A DNA stretch of 44,901 nucleotides, from NCBI GenBank assembly GCA_900317555.1, contig ONHF01000022.1, forward strand, positions 1-44,901, read 5' to 3'. The translations under genes and the position numbers were made by a program. Positions within the stretch are counted from its first letter, which is position 1, and each line of letters begins with the position of its first letter. Below, piece after piece: positions 4,315-42,582 of this stretch. Below the pieces are notes generated by a model that was not told the origin of the DNA, did no database searches, and saw nothing but the letters and a program-made list of their open reading frames with translations. Origin of the DNA: an uncultured Lachnospiraceae bacterium. GTDB taxonomy: Bacteria > Bacillota > Clostridia > Lachnospirales > Lachnospiraceae.

Positions 4315-5485
4315 AACGTCATTGATCTTTACCGGGGATATCGGTTTTGACAAATATATGGATGGAAAGTGGGAGGATGAAAATCTTCTCTCACCGGAGA
4401 TCCTGCACTTTTTACACAGCGCGGACCATGTGATCGCAAATGTCGAAGGACCGCTTCTGAAGGCTGCGCCGTCCGGCCTTTCCTCACCCGCCGGAATGGC
4501 ACAGGGTACGGCACAGCTTCTGCATACCATGAATCCCGCCGCGGTGAAGGTACTGAAGGCGATGCGCGCGGACATCTGGAATATCTGCAACAATCACATC
4601 ATGGACGCGGGGGAGAAGGGACTCGCCGCGACGATCAGGCAGGCGCAGGAAGCCGGGGCTTCCACCATCGGCGCGGGCATGAACATCTATGAGGCGCGGG
4701 AACCGAAAATTCTGCGGGAAGCGGGCGGCATCGGCCTTTTCGGCGTCGGATATCAGAGAGGCTGCAAACCGGCGGGAGAAGAAAAGGGCGGCTGTCTTAA
4801 CTGGAATGACATGGAATCGATTCAGCATTCCATCAACCTGATCAGGTCGAAATGCCGCTGGTGCATCATCGTCGCGCACGCGGGGGAGGAATTCACCTCG
4901 CTTCCCTCGCCTTATACCAGAGACCGCTATCTGCAGTATCTGCGGATGGGGGCGGACATCGTTGTGGCGCATCATCCGCATGTCCCGATGAATTATGAAC
5001 TGGCAGGAGAAAAGGCGATCTTTTATTCTCTCGGGAATTTTATCTTCGATACGGATTATCAGAGGGCGCAGTACAATACGGAACGCGGTGTTTTACTGAA
5101 ACTCCGGCTGTCACCGGAAGGCTGGTCTTTCGAACCTTTCGGCATCCGGATTGACAGGCAGAACGAGCGGATTGTGAAGGAAGCAGTACCGGACATTTTC
5201 GAGAATGTTCCCGAAGGAGAATACCGGCTGCTGGAGCCGCTCGCCGCCAAAATGTTCATCGCGGCGACAAAACGGCAGCAGATTTATCTGCATCCGGAGG
5301 AATTTGAGAACGCGGACGAGGCCAAATGGAAAGAGCATTTTGCGAACCCCCGAAGGAGCGGAAGGGTGGAAGGCGAGGCACTGGACTTTAAGATCATAAC
5401 AGAAATCGCCGCTGAAGAAGCCAAAGGCGACTGGAAGCAGAGCCGCCTCGAAAAAGTGAAAAAGTATATTCTGGATCAGATGTAA
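4283..5485 (+). CDS. CapA-family (PGA_cap) metallophosphatase-like protein
   Basis: A 400-residue protein of the CapA/PgsA metallophosphatase-like family, whose members take part in poly-gamma-glutamate capsule synthesis or act as uncharacterised phosphoesterases. Visible motifs are TGDI (17-20), NVEGP (53-57), NNH (103-105), AHAGEE (198-203), HHPH (230-233) and SLGNFIF (249-255), the usual metal-site landmarks. There is no signal peptide or membrane segment, so it is probably cytoplasmic, unlike membrane-anchored PgsA. I start it at ATG 4283, with AGGG 5 nt upstream; a second ATG at 4307 overlaps the exonuclease stop as ATGAATGA. No capB or capC gene is nearby, so a capsule role is doubtful. 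Confidence 0.75.
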   Translation: MEKDTDKDMNETSLIFTGDIGFDKYMDGKWEDENLLSPEILHFLHSADHVIANVEGPLLKAAPSGLSSPAGMAQGTAQLLHTMNPAAVKVLKAMRADIWNICNNHIMDAGEKGLAATIRQAQEAGASTIGAGMNIYEAREPKILREAGGIGLFGVGYQRGCKPAGEEKGGCLNWNDMESIQHSINLIRSKCRWCIIVAHAGEEFTSLPSPYTRDRYLQYLRMGADIVVAHHPHVPMNYELAGEKAIFYSLGNFIFDTDYQRAQYNTERGVLLKLRLSPEGWSFEPFGIRIDRQNERIVKEAVPDIFENVPEGEYRLLEPLAAKMFIAATKRQQIYLHPEEFENADEAKWKEHFANPRRSGRVEGEALDFKIITEIAAEEAKGDWKQSRLEKVKKYILDQM

Positions 5486-5523
5486 CATTTGTTACGGATC
5501 CCTGTCTGTGTCTACGCTATGAT
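5482..5523 (+). promoter_or_regulatory. hcp promoter with FNR/CRP-type operator at -41.5
   Basis: GTAAC-ATTT-GTTAC (5482-5495) is a perfect 5-4-5 palindrome, the geometry bound by FNR/CRP-family dimers, and it overlaps the stop codon of the preceding gene. TATGAT at 5518-5523 is a 5/6 match to a -10 box. With the start site placed 7 nt past that box (5530), the palindrome centre falls at -41.5, the class II activator position that replaces the -35 element; no good -35 is visible. From memory, similar palindromes have been proposed for HcpR regulators upstream of hcp. Confidence 0.7.
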
Positions 5524-5564
5524 GTTATCCGTAAACGAAAAACAACACAATAAAAGAGGTCGTT

Positions 5565-7211
5565 ATGGATAACAAAATGTTTTGCTTTCAGTGTCAGGAA
5601 ACAGCAAGAGGGACAGGCTGTACGGTAGCCGGCGTCTGCGGAAAGTCAGCGGAAGTCGCGGCAATGCAGGACCTTCTCGTCTATGTGACAAAGGGATTGT
5701 CTTTTGTAGCAACAAGGCTCCGCGAAGAGGGAAAAACAATTCCCGCCGAAGTCAACCACTTAGTGACAGTCAATCTGTTTACGACAATCACAAACGCGAA
5801 CTTCGACATCGAAGCGATTGAAGATGATATTGAACAGACTCTGTCAGTCAAGGCACAGCTTCTTGAAAAGCTCGGCAATAAGGACAATCTGCCGGATGCA
5901 GCGGTATGGAGCGGGGACAGAATTGTTTTTGCTGCGAAGGCTGCTTCCGATGAGGTGGGCGTCCTTTCCACGAAGGATGAAGATATCCGTTCTCTCCGGG
6001 AACTGATCACGTATGGCCTGAAAGGTCTTTCCGCTTATTCCAAGCACGCAAACGCCCTGCTGCAGGATGACCCGGAAGTAGATGCATTTATTCAGAGCGC
6101 ACTGGCAAAGACGCTGGATGATTCGCTGACTGTAGACGACCTTGTTGCTCTGACCCTTGAAACCGGTAAATACGGCGTTCAGGGCATGGCGCTTCTCGAC
6201 AAGGCCAATACGCAGGCTTATGGAAATCCTGAAATCACAAAGGTTGATATCGGCGTCCGCAAGAATCCCGGTATCCTTGTTTCCGGCCATGATCTGCGCG
6301 ACCTCGAGATGCTGCTCGAGCAGACACAAGGTACCGGCGTTGATGTTTACACGCACTCCGAAATGCTGCCCGCGCACTATTATCCGGCATTCAAGAAATA
6401 TCCGAATTTTGCCGGCAATTACGGAAACGCGTGGTGGAAGCAGACAACAGAGTTTGAAAGCTTTAACGGCCCGATCCTGATGACGACCAACTGTGTTGTT
6501 CTGCCGAAGGCAAGTTACAAAGACAGACTCTGGACAACCGGTGCTGTCGGCGTTCCCGGCTGCCGTCATATTTCGGCTGCATACGGAGAAGTCAAGGATT
6601 TCAGCGGGATCATCGAGCAGGCAAAACAGTGCGAGCCGCCGAAGGAAATCGAGCACGGTACGATCGTCGGCGGCTTTGCGCATGAACAGGTCTTCGCGCT
6701 CGCAGACAAGATTGTTGACGCCGTAAAGAGCGGTGCGATCCGCAAGTTTGTCGTTATGGCAGGATGTGACGGCAGAATGAAGAGCCGTTCCTACTATACG
6801 GATTTCGCGAAGGCTCTGCCGAAGGACACGGTAATCCTGACAGCCGGCTGCGCAAAGTACAAGTACAATAAGCTTGACCTCGGCGATATCGGCGGGATTC
6901 CGAGAGTCCTTGACGCGGGCCAGTGCAATGATTCCTATTCGCTTGCGCTGATTGCGCTCAAGCTCAAGGAGATTTTCGGCCTCTCCGATGTCAATGAGCT
7001 TCCGATCGCGTACAACATCGCATGGTATGAGCAGAAGGCGGTCATTGTTCTGCTTGCTCTACTGTATCTTGGCGTAAAGAACATTCATCTGGGACCGACA
7101 CTGCCCGGGTTCCTTTCCCCGAATGTTACGAATGTCCTTGTGAAAAACTTCGGTATCGCCGGCATTACGGATGTTGACAATGATATGAAAATCTTCTTCG
7201 GAGAAGCTTAA
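5565..7211 (+). CDS. hcp: Hybrid cluster protein (hydroxylamine reductase), anaerobe type
   Basis: A cytoplasmic iron-sulfur protein that reduces hydroxylamine and, in studied bacteria, detoxifies nitric oxide. The N-terminal cysteines 7, 10, 19 and 25 follow the C-x2-C-x8-C-x5-C spacing of strict-anaerobe Hcp and bind the cubane cluster. All expected hybrid-cluster ligands can be located: His242, Glu266, Cys310, Cys401, Cys429, Cys454, Glu489 and Lys491. Length, 548 residues, is normal. The gene stands alone between a promoter with a Crp/Fnr-type operator and a strong terminator. No hcr-like reductase is adjacent, as is usual in clostridia. Confidence 0.97.
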
Positions 7212-23822: not shown

Positions 23823-23828
23823 ACGCGC

Positions 23829-23933
23829 GGCGCAGCCGGTGCTGTGAGACGGCTCAGTTTCCCGGCGCGGCCGGTGCTGCGAGTCAGCTCAGTTTCCCGG
23901 CGCGGCCGGTGCCGCGAGACGGCGAACCGCTTC
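23829..23933. repeat. 35-bp tandem repeat, about 2.7 copies
   Basis: Units begin at 23829, 23864 and 23899. Units 1 and 2 share GCCGGTGCTG and GCTCAGTTTCCC with few mismatches; unit 3 diverges after about 24 bp. The stop codon of the minus-strand HAD gene (23889-23891) lies inside unit 2 and its last dozen codons lie in units 2 and 3. The unit length is not a multiple of three. Confidence 0.85.
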
Positions 23934-24563
23934 GGGCAGTTCCCGGATATCACTTATGACAGCTGCCGGGTGCTGCGCACTGCCAAAGCCGTAGGAAGCG
24001 TGGATAAAAGGAATCCCCGCCCTGTCAGCGGCAATTTCATCCATCTGTGTATCGCCGAGGTACAGGCAGGTGTTTTGACGCAGATGATTGCGCTCCATCA
24101 GGATGCGGATGGTGTCCCCTTTCGGCAGCTTTGTCCTGCCAAAACAATCGTAATCCGTAATCAATTCCGCCATCCTCTTATTTGCGAGCATTGCCTCGAT
24201 ATATCCTTCCTGGCAGTTGCTGACGATGTAGAAGCGGCAGGGGTTTGTTCTGGATAAGATCATGGCACGCAGTGTATCTTCCAATCCGGGGTAAATTACG
24301 CCGGGGTGCGCCGAAAGATATTCATTTTCATGCGACATGCACTCGTCCATGAGGCGCGCGCGGTCCGCTTCAGAGACGGAAGGGAAAAGGCTGTGTGCAA
24401 TGTCGGTCATGGTTTTGCCCATCTGGGAATATGTATCATCGACGGTAAGTACAAGATCCGTGAGGTCTCTGTGCGCGGCGAGTACTTCGTTCCAGGCATT
24501 TGTAACCTGCGGCGCGCTGTCCCAGATTGTACCGTCAACATCGAGTATAATATTGCTGATCAT
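23889..24563 (-). CDS. HAD-superfamily phosphatase (phosphoglycolate phosphatase-like)
   Basis: A 224-residue haloacid-dehalogenase hydrolase. Motif I is DVDGT with nucleophile Asp8 and acid/base Asp10; motif II is IVSN; a lysine in RTKLPKGD serves motif III; GDTQMDE forms motif IV. The helical cap inserted after motif I places it near Gph/phosphoglycolate phosphatases, but the substrate cannot be read from sequence. The C-terminal RRLAAPAAPGN is encoded within a tandem repeat and is probably not part of the ancestral protein. It is divergent from the glutaredoxin-like gene. Confidence 0.85.
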   Translation of the reverse strand: MISNIILDVDGTIWDSAPQVTNAWNEVLAAHRDLTDLVLTVDDTYSQMGKTMTDIAHSLFPSVSEADRARLMDECMSHENEYLSAHPGVIYPGLEDTLRAMILSRTNPCRFYIVSNCQEGYIEAMLANKRMAELITDYDCFGRTKLPKGDTIRILMERNHLRQNTCLYLGDTQMDEIAADRAGIPFIHASYGFGSAQHPAAVISDIRELPEAVRRLAAPAAPGN

Positions 24564-27696: not shown

Positions 27697-27837
27697 TCTT
27701 TACTAATCAGCTCATGTACGAAACTGCGATACTCTATATAAGTCTGACGAAAAAGATCTGTTCAATCTATCGTTTGTTAATCTATATAAAAGAAAAGGCA
27801 CTTTGCACTTGATCTATTAGTGCGTAACCGGCTCGAA

Positions 27838-28038
27838 TCAGAGCTTTGTTACGTTAACGGCCTGCGGTCCCTTCTGACCCTGAATTACATCGTACTCAAC
27901 AGCCTGGCCCTCGTCGAGAGACTTGAAGCCTTCCATGTTCAGTCCGGAGTAATGAACGAATACATCGTTTCCTTCAGAATCGGAAATGAATCCATAGCCC
28001 TTCTGGTTGTTAAACCACTTAACAGTACCCTTGTTCAT
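27838..28038 (-). CDS. Cold-shock protein, CspA family
   Basis: A 66-residue single cold-shock domain that binds single-stranded RNA and DNA. RNP1 is KGYGFIS (about 13-19) and RNP2 is VFVHYSG (about 26-32). GGAGG lies 6-7 nt before the ATG. It has the length and sequence of constitutive or cold-induced Csp proteins. An 8-6-8 inverted repeat sits in the region just upstream and a strong terminator about 140 nt downstream. Confidence 0.95.
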
Positions 28039-28081
28039 TCTAATACCTCCAAATGCATGAATGAAGAATTTCTTGGTATCT

Positions 28082-28103
28082 GTACTTTAGAGTATTAAAG
28101 TAC
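28082..28103. repeat. 8-6-8 perfect inverted repeat upstream of csp
   Basis: GTACTTTA-GAGTAT-TAAAGTAC, about 45 bp upstream of the csp start codon. It could be an operator or a 5'-leader hairpin; csp leaders are often structured. No clean -35/-10 pair was found around it. Confidence 0.5.
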
Positions 28104-28155: not shown

Positions 28156-30871
28156 CTAATTTTCAGTCTGTTTTGCTTTCCACGCAAGAATCGCAAGGAT
28201 CAATGCCGCGACTGCCGAAATTCCGATGCAGACCTTCATACCTGCCGGGAAATACCGGAATTCAATGTTGTGCTCTCCCGCCGGAACATCAATTGCCATC
28301 AGGCCGAAATCTGCGCGGATGAGCGGTGTTTTGACGCCGTCGACGTAAGCGGTAAAGCCCTTGTCATACGGCACCGAGAAGAAGACAAGATTCTCCTTAT
28401 CAAGTTTAGCTGTGGCGGTAAAACCGTTCTTCGTGAAGGAAAACTCAGTGCAGGCGGTCCCGGCGCGGGCCGTGCAGTTGTCCGCAAACGCCTGATCGGA
28501 TACGGGAAGATCCGGACTGCCTTTTCGCAGCAGATGGCCGTAGGTCTCCGCATCGTCTGCACTTAGAATCAGTTCTCTTGTCAGAATTCTGTCCGCGAGC
28601 GTTCTGTCCGCAATCTCCGCGTATTCGTCCTCGGTGATATACGAATCAAACGTAAAGCCCATCGGAATGAAATTCGTATTTTCGTAGATATTGAAGCCGT
28701 TCGAATTACCGGCATAGACATAACCCTTGATGCCGCCTTTGTCTGTGTAACTGTTTTTCTGGCTGATTTGCGCGTTTTCGAGGTAATAGCGGCCGGACAG
28801 CAGCGCCCGCGCGCCTGCCCTCGACAGATCCATCTTGGAATCCACGGTTCTGGAAACACCGATCGCTTCATAGAAGCGGAAGATGGACGGATTGACCGTA
28901 CTTTGGAAACAGTGCAGCGTAGGATATCCCCAGACCATCTCGTAGTTGGTCGAGGAGCCGTCTGCTTCAGCCCTTGCGAAAACACCGCCTTCCGAAGGCT
29001 CCGTACTTACCGGCAGAACCGGTGCATTGGAAAGCTGGTCGTGCCATTTTGTGCCGCCCGAGCGCGCGATCAGTGTATTCCCGTTGAATACCACGCCCAT
29101 CGTTGTGATCAGGCACATGAGAGCGGTCAGAGCAACGAAGCGGCGGGGCAGAAGGGAATTGCTGTCCTGCACCGGGTTTGCCGGGGCTGTTCCGTCCGCC
29201 GGCGCCCCGCCGGCAGGCATTTCGCCGCCTTTCTCTGCCGCAGCATTAGCGGCGGACGCAGTGCTTTCGGCACCCTCTTCTCCGGCTGCATCAGCCTGCG
29301 GCTGCTCTGCCGCCGCTCTTTCCGGAACCTGCCTGTGCAGCGGATAAATCCAGATCAGATAAACGACAAACGGTACCTGCACCAGCGTGAAAATCATCCC
29401 GACCCAGAACAGCTCCGGGTATTCCATGATCCTGAACCATGCGACGGTACCGTCCTTTACCTTGGAAGGCAGAATGGCAATCAGCGCGAAAATCAGATCC
29501 GCGGCAAAACAGACCGCGGCGCCTGCCCGCAGTTCCCTGTAATCCTGTTCTTCCAGCTCGATGGCAGTCGCAAGCGCCATAAAAAGAAGCGGCATGAAAA
29601 ACCACCTTGCGTAGTATTCGGAGTTGAACGCGGAGAAGACCGAGTTCAGGACCGGAACAAACGAGATGACAAGACAGGTCAGAAGGAGCCTCCGCAGGCG
29701 GTCACTGCGCCGCGGACCTGCTGTCCTTCGAAGATAGGCAATCACCCCCGTAAGGGCAAAGCCCGGCAGATACGCGGACAGCGAACTGTTGCGGATCTGT
29801 TCGCTCGCGAACATGGAAGCGCGCCCGACGATATCCGGAACCATAAACATGGAGCGGATGATCGCCAGCGGCGTCACCGGCTCGGAGTAAGCCAGCATGT
29901 CATAACCCAGAAGCACATCGGATAGCCGCGTGTTGCCGGAAACCGTATCGAAAACCTGAATCAGGAAAAAGGCCGCAAGACAGAGCCCGAGCGCGCCATA
30001 TAAAAGAAGCGACAGGATTTCGGGAAGCACCGCGCGGAGGTTTTCACCAAAACGGGGCGCGGCTTCTTCCACGGCGCTCGCATTGATGGCAGTGCTATCC
30101 GCGGCGAGTTCCCGGCCGGCTGCCCCGCCCGCAGCAGCGCTCTGCGCGGCAGGCTCCTCCACGTCGCACGCCTGCGGCGCTGTACCGCAAATAGCGCGCC
30201 TTCGAAGCCCGGCGTTACCCGCATAGTAAATAAAATAATAGATGATAATGAATACAACTTCCCCGTAAAAGAAGAAATAGTTGAGCACCGCCATGAACGC
30301 TGTCATGAGAGCAAAGGGAATCCGGCGTTTCTTCTGAACAAAATCGTCAAATGCCAGAAGGTACAGCGGGAAGAAAGCGATCGCCTCATGAAAATGCTGG
30401 AAGACGATGTTGCAGGCGCTGAAGCCGGAAAAGCTGTACAGGAGGGCGCCGAGGAGTGCGGCGCGGTTTGTTTTGACGCGGCTGCGGAGCCATGCGAAAG
30501 AACATGTGAGCGCTGTCCCGTACTTGAGCGACATCAGAAACGGAAGAATGTACGGGATCGCCTTCTCCGGAAACAGGCAGGCCAGCCAGAAGAACGGGCT
30601 GCCCCACAGATAAAACGCGAAGGAGCCGCCCATGCTCGAGCCGAGGTCAACCTTCGGATTCCAGAACAGCATGCCGTTTCGCACAGCTCTTGTTGCAAGA
30701 ATGTAAAACGGAACCTGCTGTACGTTATAGTCGCCGTAATAGAAGAAATATCCGCCGTGATAAATAATAAAAGGGAGTACCGCTATCAGGTACAGCTATC
30801 AGGTACAGCAGTACTCCGGTGAAAAACACCTTTCCGAAAGTGATCTTATGCTTGTTTGTCTGTGTTCTCAT
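28156..30871 (-). pseudogene. YfhO-family membrane protein broken by a 13-bp tandem duplication
   Basis: YfhO-like proteins are large polytopic membrane proteins of the GT-C type, linked in Bacillus to glycosylation of lipoteichoic acid. The start is ATG 30871, overlapping the yerC stop region. A duplicated 13-bp unit (30782-30807) shifts the frame, and translation stops after about 48 codons. Removing one copy gives a 900-residue protein with a basic N-terminus, a first membrane helix (VLLYLIAVLPFIIYHGGYFF) and the loop YYGDYNVQQVPFYIL, as expected for the family. The rest of the frame is open to 28156, with many membrane helices and an Ala/Gly/Pro-rich loop near codon 550. Either a phase-variable gene, a recent pseudogene or a sequencing error. 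Confidence 0.8.
30782..30807. repeat. 13-bp perfect tandem duplication (frameshifting)
   Basis: GCTATCAGGTACA is present twice, back to back, within codons 24-32 of the yfhO-like gene on the minus strand. Thirteen is 1 modulo 3, so each gain or loss of a unit changes the reading frame. Confidence 0.95.
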
Positions 30872-31154
30872 TTTCCATCCGGTCCAGTACCATATCGTAT
30901 CCATCGTTGCCGTAATTGAGCGAGCGGTTAACGCGGCTGATCGTAGCGGTCGAAGCGCCGGTTTCCTCGGCGATCTTCAGATACGTCTCGTGTGCGCGCA
31001 GCATGGTTGCGACCTCAAAACGCTGCGAAAGCGACAGCAGCTCGTTCACGGTGCACAGGTCCTCGAAGAACTTGTAACACTCTTCCTTATCCTTGAGCTC
31101 GAGGACCGCGCCAAAAAGGTGGTCCACGGCGTCTGTTCTGATCTTTTTATTCAT
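30846..31154 (-). CDS. yerC: TrpR-like repressor, YerC/YecD family
   Basis: A 102-residue protein of the Trp-repressor fold. The helix-turn-helix is ETGASTATISRVNRSLNYGNDGY, the YerC/YecD hallmark, and the upstream helices match the dimerising part of TrpR. I start it at ATG 31154 with GGGAGA upstream; an upstream frame adds 17 unrelated residues. The regulon of YerC proteins is not established to my knowledge. It is divergent from the ACT-hom-lysC genes, and its end overlaps the yfhO-like start by 26 nt. Confidence 0.9.
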   Translation of the reverse strand: MNKKIRTDAVDHLFGAVLELKDKEECYKFFEDLCTVNELLSLSQRFEVATMLRAHETYLKIAEETGASTATISRVNRSLNYGNDGYDMVLDRMENENTDKQA

Positions 31155-31266
31155 ATGCAGTCTCCCTGTCTGATAACCACTGTCATGAAAACCTTCCGAC
31201 GGCATATTTTAGCATTTTAACGTAAGAAAGTAAAGCTCCGGCGGAATCGTTTGTACATATTCACGG

Positions 31267-31321
31267 ATTTGCGCAAATACACAGACTCCCGGTTGCGCGC
31301 GCCGCCCATTAATGTTAAGAT
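31267..31321 (+). promoter_or_regulatory. Promoter of the ACT-hom-lysC genes with a palindrome
   Basis: TTGCGC (31293-31298) and TAAGAT (31316-31321) are 17 bp apart, and the -10 is preceded by TGT as in extended promoters. Upstream lies a perfect 12-bp palindrome, ATTTGCGCAAAT (31267-31278), centred near -55. It lies in the divergent region with yerC and could be an operator for either direction. Confidence 0.45.
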
Positions 31322-31410
31322 ATCCGCTATGAGCGTACAGATGTCCGCCGTAAAAAGACTTTCATCTGCCGCCCGTCATGATGAAACAGGAACAGGGAAC
31401 AGAGGCACGC

Positions 31411-35550: not shown

Positions 35551-36063
35551 TTGGATTTCGGCTGTATAGAAGTAGTTGCGAAAAGGCAGAAGAACAAGGC
35601 GCTTTCTGCTGTTAAGACAATCCTTGTCGCCGTTTCCGCAGCCTGCATTCTGCTGGGCATCGGAAACTTCATTCTGCTGATTCCGGGAGTGGCGGCTGCG
35701 GCAGGCGCGTATTTCGCGGATCTCTATACATATGTTGATTATGAGTACGCGCTCGTGGACAAAGAGCTCCGTATAGCGAGAATCCTGAAAAAATCCAGGA
35801 GAAAACATCTTGCGACCTACGACCTTGAAAAGATGGAAATGCTCGCTCCTGCGGATTCAGATGATATCGCGTATCTGAAAAACCGTCAGGATAACGTCAT
35901 GGATTACTCGGACGGGAACACAGACAATAAGAAGGACACATGGTATCTGTTTCTTGCGGGCAATACGAGACTTATATTAACGCTTCCTGCGGAAAGTGCG
36001 GAAGCGCGCAAACTCCTTACGGCAGTCCGGACGTTCGCACCCCGTAAAGTCGCGTCCGTCTGA
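35551..36063 (+). CDS. Small membrane protein, DUF6106-like
   Basis: A 170-residue protein with two close membrane segments (about 24-42 and 44-60) followed by a soluble domain: EYALVDKELRIARILKKSRRKHLATYDLEKMEMLAP. This arrangement resembles DUF6106 proteins of Lachnospiraceae as I remember them, with a PH-like soluble domain; the function is unknown. The start is TTG 35551, behind GGGGAGGGGA. Its 3' flank before guaB (36064-36186) holds a GC-rich palindrome but no clear terminator. Confidence 0.65.
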   Translation: MDFGCIEVVAKRQKNKALSAVKTILVAVSAACILLGIGNFILLIPGVAAAAGAYFADLYTYVDYEYALVDKELRIARILKKSRRKHLATYDLEKMEMLAPADSDDIAYLKNRQDNVMDYSDGNTDNKKDTWYLFLAGNTRLILTLPAESAEARKLLTAVRTFAPRKVASV

Positions 36064-41958: not shown

Positions 41959-42582
41959 ATGAGTGCATTCGGTAAGGCATTATTCGGGGCTGCCCTGATC
42001 GGTGCTGCAGCTGCAGGGGTTTACTATTATCTGGAGAAGACTTCCAGAGAATCTGCAGAAGAAGGCGAAGAGAACGGCGGCGCATTTGATCCCGAGAACG
42101 TGAAGAAGGCCGCGAACAGAGCCTATACAACGATTAAGCATGGCACAGATCAGACGTGGTCAAAGGTAAAGGACGCGATTACCCCCAGGAACGATGAAGC
42201 GGATGATGACGAAGACATCGACATTGAGGTTGAGGGGAACGAAGACGAAACGTCTGCGGAAACAGTGCCGGAAGAGGCAGCAGCTGCAGCGGTGAATACA
42301 CCGGAAGAGGCAGCAGCCGCAGAGGAGAAAACTCCGGAAGACACGGCAGCGGCAGAGGCTCCTTCAGAAACGGAAGAAAGTAATGCGGTAACGGCAGATG
42401 TGCCTGTGGATAATCCTGAATCGCCTTCGGACGATGCAGCTCCCGCTGAAGGCGGAAAACTGCAGGATGAAGAGGAACCTGCGGATGCGCAGCAGTGTGA
42501 AGACGCTTCCGAAGATACAGAATTTGTAAAGAAAGCGGAGGAAGTCGAAAAGTTCTTCGATGATACCGACAGCAGCCGGTAA
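41959..42582 (+). CDS. Acidic membrane-anchored protein with low-complexity tail
   Basis: A 207-residue protein with one N-terminal hydrophobic helix (about 6-24, LFGAALIGAAAAGVYYYL), a short basic/helical region, and a very acidic Ala/Glu/Pro-rich tail with repeats such as TPEEAAAAEE and KTPEDTAAAE. The start is ATG 41959, 6 nt after GGAGGT. It looks like the YtxH-type small anchored proteins in layout only; no function is known. A TATACT at 41879-41884 may be its -10 box. Confidence 0.65.
   Translation: MSAFGKALFGAALIGAAAAGVYYYLEKTSRESAEEGEENGGAFDPENVKKAANRAYTTIKHGTDQTWSKVKDAITPRNDEADDDEDIDIEVEGNEDETSAETVPEEAAAAAVNTPEEAAAAEEKTPEDTAAAEAPSETEESNAVTADVPVDNPESPSDDAAPAEGGKLQDEEEPADAQQCEDASEDTEFVKKAEEVEKFFDDTDSSR

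Follow-up and report, generated by a model that had tools for sequence, protein, structure and literature searches.

Locus and duplication

The region analyzed here is a 44,901-nt stretch of DNA (the window) from an uncultured Lachnospiraceae bacterium whose genome is a draft, 87% complete and in 32 contigs; the relatives used for comparison are recorded mostly as Lachnospiraceae. On the minus strand of the window, a gene of the YfhO family (yfhO) lies directly downstream of a gene for a TrpR-family protein (Table 1). The product of the upstream gene was identified as YerC by a match to TIGR02531, and YerC has been described as the histidine repressor HisR (PMC9413887). A pattern for the HisR operator has 20 matches in the window, 19 of them with one mismatch.

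Within yfhO, the 13-bp unit GCTATCAGGTACA is present twice in exact tandem, the identical run at the tandem is 15 bp, and the additional 13 bp shift the frame of the gene. With two units, the frame that begins with the ATG at 30871 has 48 codons (translated by eye) before its stop at 30725, and this yfhO has no intact frame in its own genome. Downstream, the other frame stays open to 28156; the first ATG, GTG, or TTG codon in it is the GTG at 30684. The motif TGATAG within the 13-bp unit supplies two stops in that downstream frame. Both the exact doubling and the stop after about 48 codons had been reported in a preliminary description of this DNA and were confirmed.

Table 1. Features at the duplication site, in window coordinates
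Feature	Position	Strand	Remarks
Upstream hisR (yerC), TrpR-family	30846..31205	-	Stop inside first yfhO codons
Truncated yfhO frame	30725..30871	-	Native ATG, 48 codons and stop
Stem-loop region	30774..30817	-	11-bp arms (one G-T) at 30807-30817 and 30774-30784
Two exact 13-bp units	30782..30807	-	One unit in sister species; yfhO frame shifted
T-rich tail after stem	30759..30773	-	PFIIY codons in sister species; other half of terminator-like element
yfhO remainder	28156..30684	-	842 codons from GTG, without first helix and without invariant Asp loop

Exact tandem units of 10–80 bp are otherwise absent from the window, and one (12 bp) occurs in a 241,710-base sample of the remaining genome. Two longer tandem arrays occur in the window at 42268–42358 (33 bp × 2.8) and 23828–23923 (35 bp × 2.7). 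The first of these sits in a gene whose dN/dS (0.25) exceeds that of all other window genes compared with the sister species described below.

The YfhO protein

The 842-codon body of the gene matches Pfam PF09586 with 200.4 bits (cut-off 28.5), which supports its assignment to the YfhO family; the NCBIfam matches, PgfM1 and PgfM2, are both far under their cut-offs. A structural model of the orthologue from the sister species has a mean pLDDT of 83.4 and a pTM of 0.86. Its best match is the arabinofuranosyltransferase AftD (E value 4.9e-06), followed more weakly by the oligosaccharyltransferases STT3 and PglB, at TM-scores that are low (about 0.25–0.37). We take AftD, STT3, and PglB to be GT-C enzymes. 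The aspartate of the YYGDYNVQQ loop, which follows helix 1, is invariant in all 28 aligned relatives, and it occurs in 79 of 79 rows of a wider alignment, although one of these rows (L113) starts within the gene and is best disregarded. By its predicted GT-C-like fold and its Asp loop, the intact orthologue fits the family, and the broken gene is a probable cell-surface sugar-transfer gene. YfhO proteins are needed for the sugar decoration of teichoic acids in Bacillus subtilis and Listeria (PMC5836110, PMC8035078).

Two more YfhO genes without stops were identified in the same genome, which therefore has at least three yfhO genes in total, along with three GtrA-like genes. One of the stop-free paralogues (L129, on contig C8) adjoins an apparent transposase gene at 4666–6027, named by eye.

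Comparison with related genomes

The nearest species compared (the sister species, genome G023) has about 90% DNA identity to the window, the same gene order, a single copy of the 13-bp unit, and an intact yfhO. Its contig (JAQXUQ010000010.1, the sequence also used as L036 and L007) is collinear with the window, and long pieces are about 88%–93% identical. Because the sister species has one unit, the second copy in the window is an extra unit relative to it, and a chance repeat was ruled out. The preliminary description was supported in its reading that the duplication breaks a YfhO-family gene. The preliminary description was right that the one-unit frame is continuous and encodes the expected first membrane helix and YYGDYNVQQ loop, but its length of 900 codons was slightly high: the sister orthologue has 868 amino acids from its ATG.

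Compared with the sister species, the body of yfhO has a dN/dS of 0.140 over 810 aligned codons, a sign of purifying selection. For 34 window genes the median is 0.049; the higher value of YfhO comes mostly from two variable stretches. A second lesion in the body was not found against the sister sequence. Of 35 window genes compared with the sister species, yfhO alone was judged to be broken. Apparent frame shifts in 23889–24563 and 35551–36063 were set aside as false open-frame extensions; on our reading, the mismatched pieces, which are 69%–71% identical, fall outside these two genes, one of them partly opposite another conserved gene.

Comparison with close relatives, as the preliminary description had proposed, extended this result beyond the sister species. 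Of 79 related loci, 78 reach the site (L113 has its start within the gene), and none of these 78 showed a break there; the duplication is absent from all related species' loci that reach the site. A search for both alleles in 397 genomes of the family returned one match, the genome itself, from a draw that excluded the sister species and is therefore little informative, and a search for alleles of the duplication site in viral contigs gave no matches. The only other break in the YfhO set, in Firmicutes CAG:791 (L051, around 6146–6163, on the same contig as L031 and L119), was rejected as a parallel since it is a run of N and hence an artefact. We judge the duplication to be recent because the body is under purifying selection and has no second lesion, which rules out an old pseudogene. 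So far as is visible in these sequences, the duplication looks both recent and private to its own genome.

Two other features were observed in the alignment with the sister species. A region at 27820–28098, named by eye as a cold-shock gene, has no nucleotide differences over 92 codons, while dS in the other compared window genes is 0.26–0.56. Positions 1–149 of the window match the sister contig beside the match of the window's other end, as if the two ends adjoin in the sister species or the piece is repeated.

A stem-loop at the duplication site

The duplication lies in an inverted repeat. Its loop is 9 nt long in the one-unit sister allele and 22 nt in the two-unit window allele, the difference being the duplication. 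Folded as DNA, the sister hairpin has a z-score of −4.15, and none of 200 shuffled sequences was as stable. Inverted repeats of equal strength number 63 in 241,710 bases of the window's own genome, an estimated 1% or so of the sequence. The chance that one duplication would land in such a repeat is likewise estimated at about 1%, for a question framed after the site had been seen. The site also contains an imperfect direct repeat, GCTGTAC/GCGGTAC (6 of 7 positions), with a spacing of 13 bp, the size of the duplication; among spacings of 6–30 bp, this repeat is the longest, tied with one at a spacing of 21 bp.

Related genes have stems in the same place. Stems of at least 10 bp were found within the 120 nt leading up to the Asp codon in 16 of 76 loci versus 10 of 395 control blocks, and 14 of the 16 share one distance from the Asp codon. 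When sequences were resampled synonymously with each gene's own codon usage, 27 of 82 distinct regions folded below a z-score of −1.64 (mean z, −1.00). For the 33 closest relatives, defined as those rows among the 82 that are at least 44% identical to the sister protein, the mean z at the site was −1.74. By comparison, 4,249 control windows had a mean z of −0.10 (SD 1.02), with 7.3% below −1.64. In 20 of the 33 relatives, no other 39-nt window anywhere in the gene is as stable as the site, which ranks third in the sister species; by z-score it is first in 4 of 33 genes and among the ten best of about 130 windows in 21 of 33.

Codon choice at the site is also constrained. For pair counts, two groups of sequences were chosen by eye once the hairpin was known: group A with 8 rows and group B with 18. 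They came from 40 distinct rows, after removal of 4 near-copies and of 10 rows that lack the element. Among all scored columns, synonymous sites at the stem-loop show the highest conservation in the joint set and in group B; in group A taken by itself, the GDY region ranks just ahead of the site. Across 15 genes of group B, the codons GGA, GTC, CTT, and TTT are each used in all 15, with an intervening proline codon that takes all four forms. The T content of the 9 nt after the stem averages 6.38 in 21 stem-bearing genes (4.88 expected) and 5.08 in 12 other genes (4.70 expected). The stem and its T-run are conserved beyond amino-acid demand and are not accidental. No Rfam family matches positions 30500–31400 at E values up to 1. 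The preliminary description, correct on the duplication, had missed this conserved terminator-like hairpin around it.

Pairing within the stem was examined for compensatory change. In group B, 13 cells show changes at both positions of a pair, and the covariation score, a measure that kinship can inflate, was reached by none of 500 shuffles. On measures robust to kinship it is unexceptional, with pairs changed on both sides matched in 341 and pair types in 496 of 500 shuffles. The corresponding shuffle counts for group A are 38, 259, and 462 of 500. Columns 11 and 33 of group A are CG in four rows, UA in three, and UG in one, across long branches. In a set of 30 rows, the left base agrees with its partner in 29. 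Only three independent pairs lie on well-supported branches; two agree and none opposes (p 0.5). A 38-row tree shows just two changes in the state of the site, so relatives are not independent evidence. Support for compensatory change in the stem is mixed, suggestive in these alignments and short of proof.

Terminator-like score and association with hisR

The site was scored as an intrinsic terminator using a standard formula (score D). Scores above zero were obtained at the site in 24 of the 33 closer relatives. A local scan gave 25 of 33, against 2.29 expected under synonymous resampling, so that amino acids alone do not make the terminator score; on a set of 38 rows, a local scan gave 30. 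Other hits on the sense strand are common in these genes generally: 79,779 bases contain 46 (49 with three shifted ones), compared with 7 antisense. Across relatives, scores at the site range from 8.9 to 47.1, and hits in the window reach 59.1 between genes and 14.9 inside genes. In several species, including the sister species (9.7), the score is weak and inside the range of other intragenic hits. The two-unit allele of the window scores below zero, at −10.2 versus +9.7 in the sister species.

Presence of the element goes together with the position of hisR. It occurs in 21 of 26 loci in which hisR ends less than 300 nt upstream, in none of four loci in which hisR is opposite or far, and in all three loci for which the available stretch omits the upstream gene. 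Among the five exceptions with hisR close, two (L041 and L042) lack the stem-loop in the gene and instead have a strong hit right after hisR, one (L062) has a shifted hit, and two (L028 and L061) have none. The hits in L041 and L042 score about 42 and are located 134–158 nt ahead of the Asp codon, as though the terminator had been relocated. In five other loci (L053, L054, L055, L063, and L064), the hisR stop is the in-frame stop preceding yfhO, which has TTG starts (and one ATG, in L054); read-through of the stop would fuse both proteins there.

By these comparisons, the site is a conserved intrinsic-terminator-like element, whose stem and T-run keep a constant position within the first-helix codons. 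A putative role in termination is suggested because conservation, the T-run, and gene order coincide. Transcription of hisR would presumably be ended or attenuated at this element, limiting read-through into yfhO. Among the paper titles surveyed, none dealt with a terminator or hairpin inside yfhO. Where RNA polymerase outruns ribosomes, the composition of genes is reportedly shaped by avoidance of premature termination that depends on Rho (PMC13323073).

Interpretation

The account we consider probable is a recent, private loss-of-function slippage in a stem-loop that is itself a terminator-like element embedded after hisR. Before the event, the site would have resembled the sister allele, with an 11-bp inverted repeat, a 9-nt loop, and an imperfect direct repeat 13 bp apart. 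The hairpin would serve as the end signal of hisR, placed within yfhO because the two genes overlap or nearly do so. During replication, a polymerase pausing at the hairpin could allow the paused strand to realign by exactly 13 bp through GCTGTAC/GCGGTAC, giving the duplication; it is from this single event that slippage is inferred. Besides breaking the yfhO frame, the duplication lowers the terminator-like score, and the function of this YfhO protein is presumably lost.

About as likely as not, the event is simply a recent loss of function, whether neutral or under selection, for which reversibility is irrelevant; this reading is compatible with the slippage account. Such a loss has been described in Listeria, where two different nonsense mutations in the YfhO homologue lmo1079 arose in four of six isolates under selection of the palmitoleic-acid type and gave fatty-acid and acid tolerance (PMC9133914). 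The two further stop-free YfhO genes of the genome also count in its favour. On the other side, the body is still without a second lesion or relaxed selection, and a loss may be costly: in B. subtilis, loss of YfhO while its partner is active traps a lipid carrier and turns on SigM (PMC11081497). The preliminary description had gone further and suggested a phase switch through gain and loss of the unit. In its full form, the 13-bp unit would be gained and lost often enough to keep a standing mixture of on and off cells in the population, and this would be selected. A frame-shifting tandem unit does lie inside the gene and the remainder of yfhO is intact, and precedents have been described in reversible pneumococcal capsule-gene duplications (cited in PMC4022640, PMC4243769) and in Staphylococcus aureus icaC, where a 4-bp repeat switches by slippage (PMC4117637). 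No tract is kept or varies in length in relatives, however: the sister species has one unit, related loci are invariant, and there is no sign of repeated or selected switching. The reversion frequency for insertions of at most 9 bp has also been put at about 1e-5 or lower (PMC4022640). The two-unit allele may revert, since one 13-bp duplication can in principle be undone. A phase switch is nevertheless unsupported here, and we regard it as quite unlikely.

The remaining alternatives concern the hairpin, the assembly, and the downstream frame. A role of the hairpin in how the first helix is translated or inserted into the membrane, by slowing ribosomes, would fit its fixed place in the first-helix codons and the weak terminator scores of several species; the favoured T-run and the association with hisR directly upstream point to termination instead, and we consider a translational role unlikely. 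An assembly or binning artefact in an organism that really has one unit is conceivable in an incomplete, fragmented draft. The 28-bp structure is shorter than the usual assembly words, though, and a single unit would normally assemble singly; moreover, with one more exact tandem of at least 10 bp in the other sampled bases and no other window gene broken, we give an artefact little credence. Continued expression of yfhO, by +1 frameshifting or restart at GTG 30684, is the least plausible reading. The two frames overlap by about 80 nt containing CCC-TTT (by eye) and 842 codons remain open, but the overlap has no long slippery run (by eye), and a protein started at the GTG would be missing both the first helix and the Asp kept by aligned relatives.

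If the stem-loop does terminate transcription, one stretch of DNA would be doubly constrained, as a membrane helix and as the stop signal of the preceding gene, which would explain both the odd codon choice and why the duplication struck there. Low, conditional expression of yfhO would be predicted, and intragenic hairpins could seed reversible knock-outs of surface genes without a visible simple repeat. A stronger form of this idea, a dual-use element that meters hisR read-through and also, because terminators are inverted repeats, makes yfhO a hotspot of reversible slippage, is speculative and in our estimate improbable. If true, embedded terminators would be hidden contingency loci, with no visible repeat tract before firing.

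Comparison with known systems

The gene resembles those for YfhO and Lmo1079 in family, size, and a shared GT-C-like predicted fold (PMC5836110, PMC8035078). Unlike those systems, no CsbB-like glycosyltransferase was found among the six neighbouring proteins scanned.

Tandem duplications in the pneumococcal capsule genes cap3A, cap8E, and tts are reportedly spontaneous and reversible, in work by Waite from 2001 and 2003. The present duplication is likewise short, in tandem, within a probable surface-glycan gene, and reversible in principle. Variation and reversion have been reported for the pneumococcal capsule, whereas one state in one genome is seen here. As in S. aureus icaC (PMC4117637), the frame of a surface-glycan gene would have been shifted by slippage; icaC has a standing repeat tract, whereas the sister allele at our locus has no tract but just a hairpin and a 7-bp direct repeat that is imperfect. 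The site may also be compared with the RNA 3′ ends internal to open reading frames in Escherichia coli (PMC7815308), as a candidate termination or RNA element within coding sequence. It differs from the E. coli cases in that it is predicted from conservation and stands at a gene start, after hisR.
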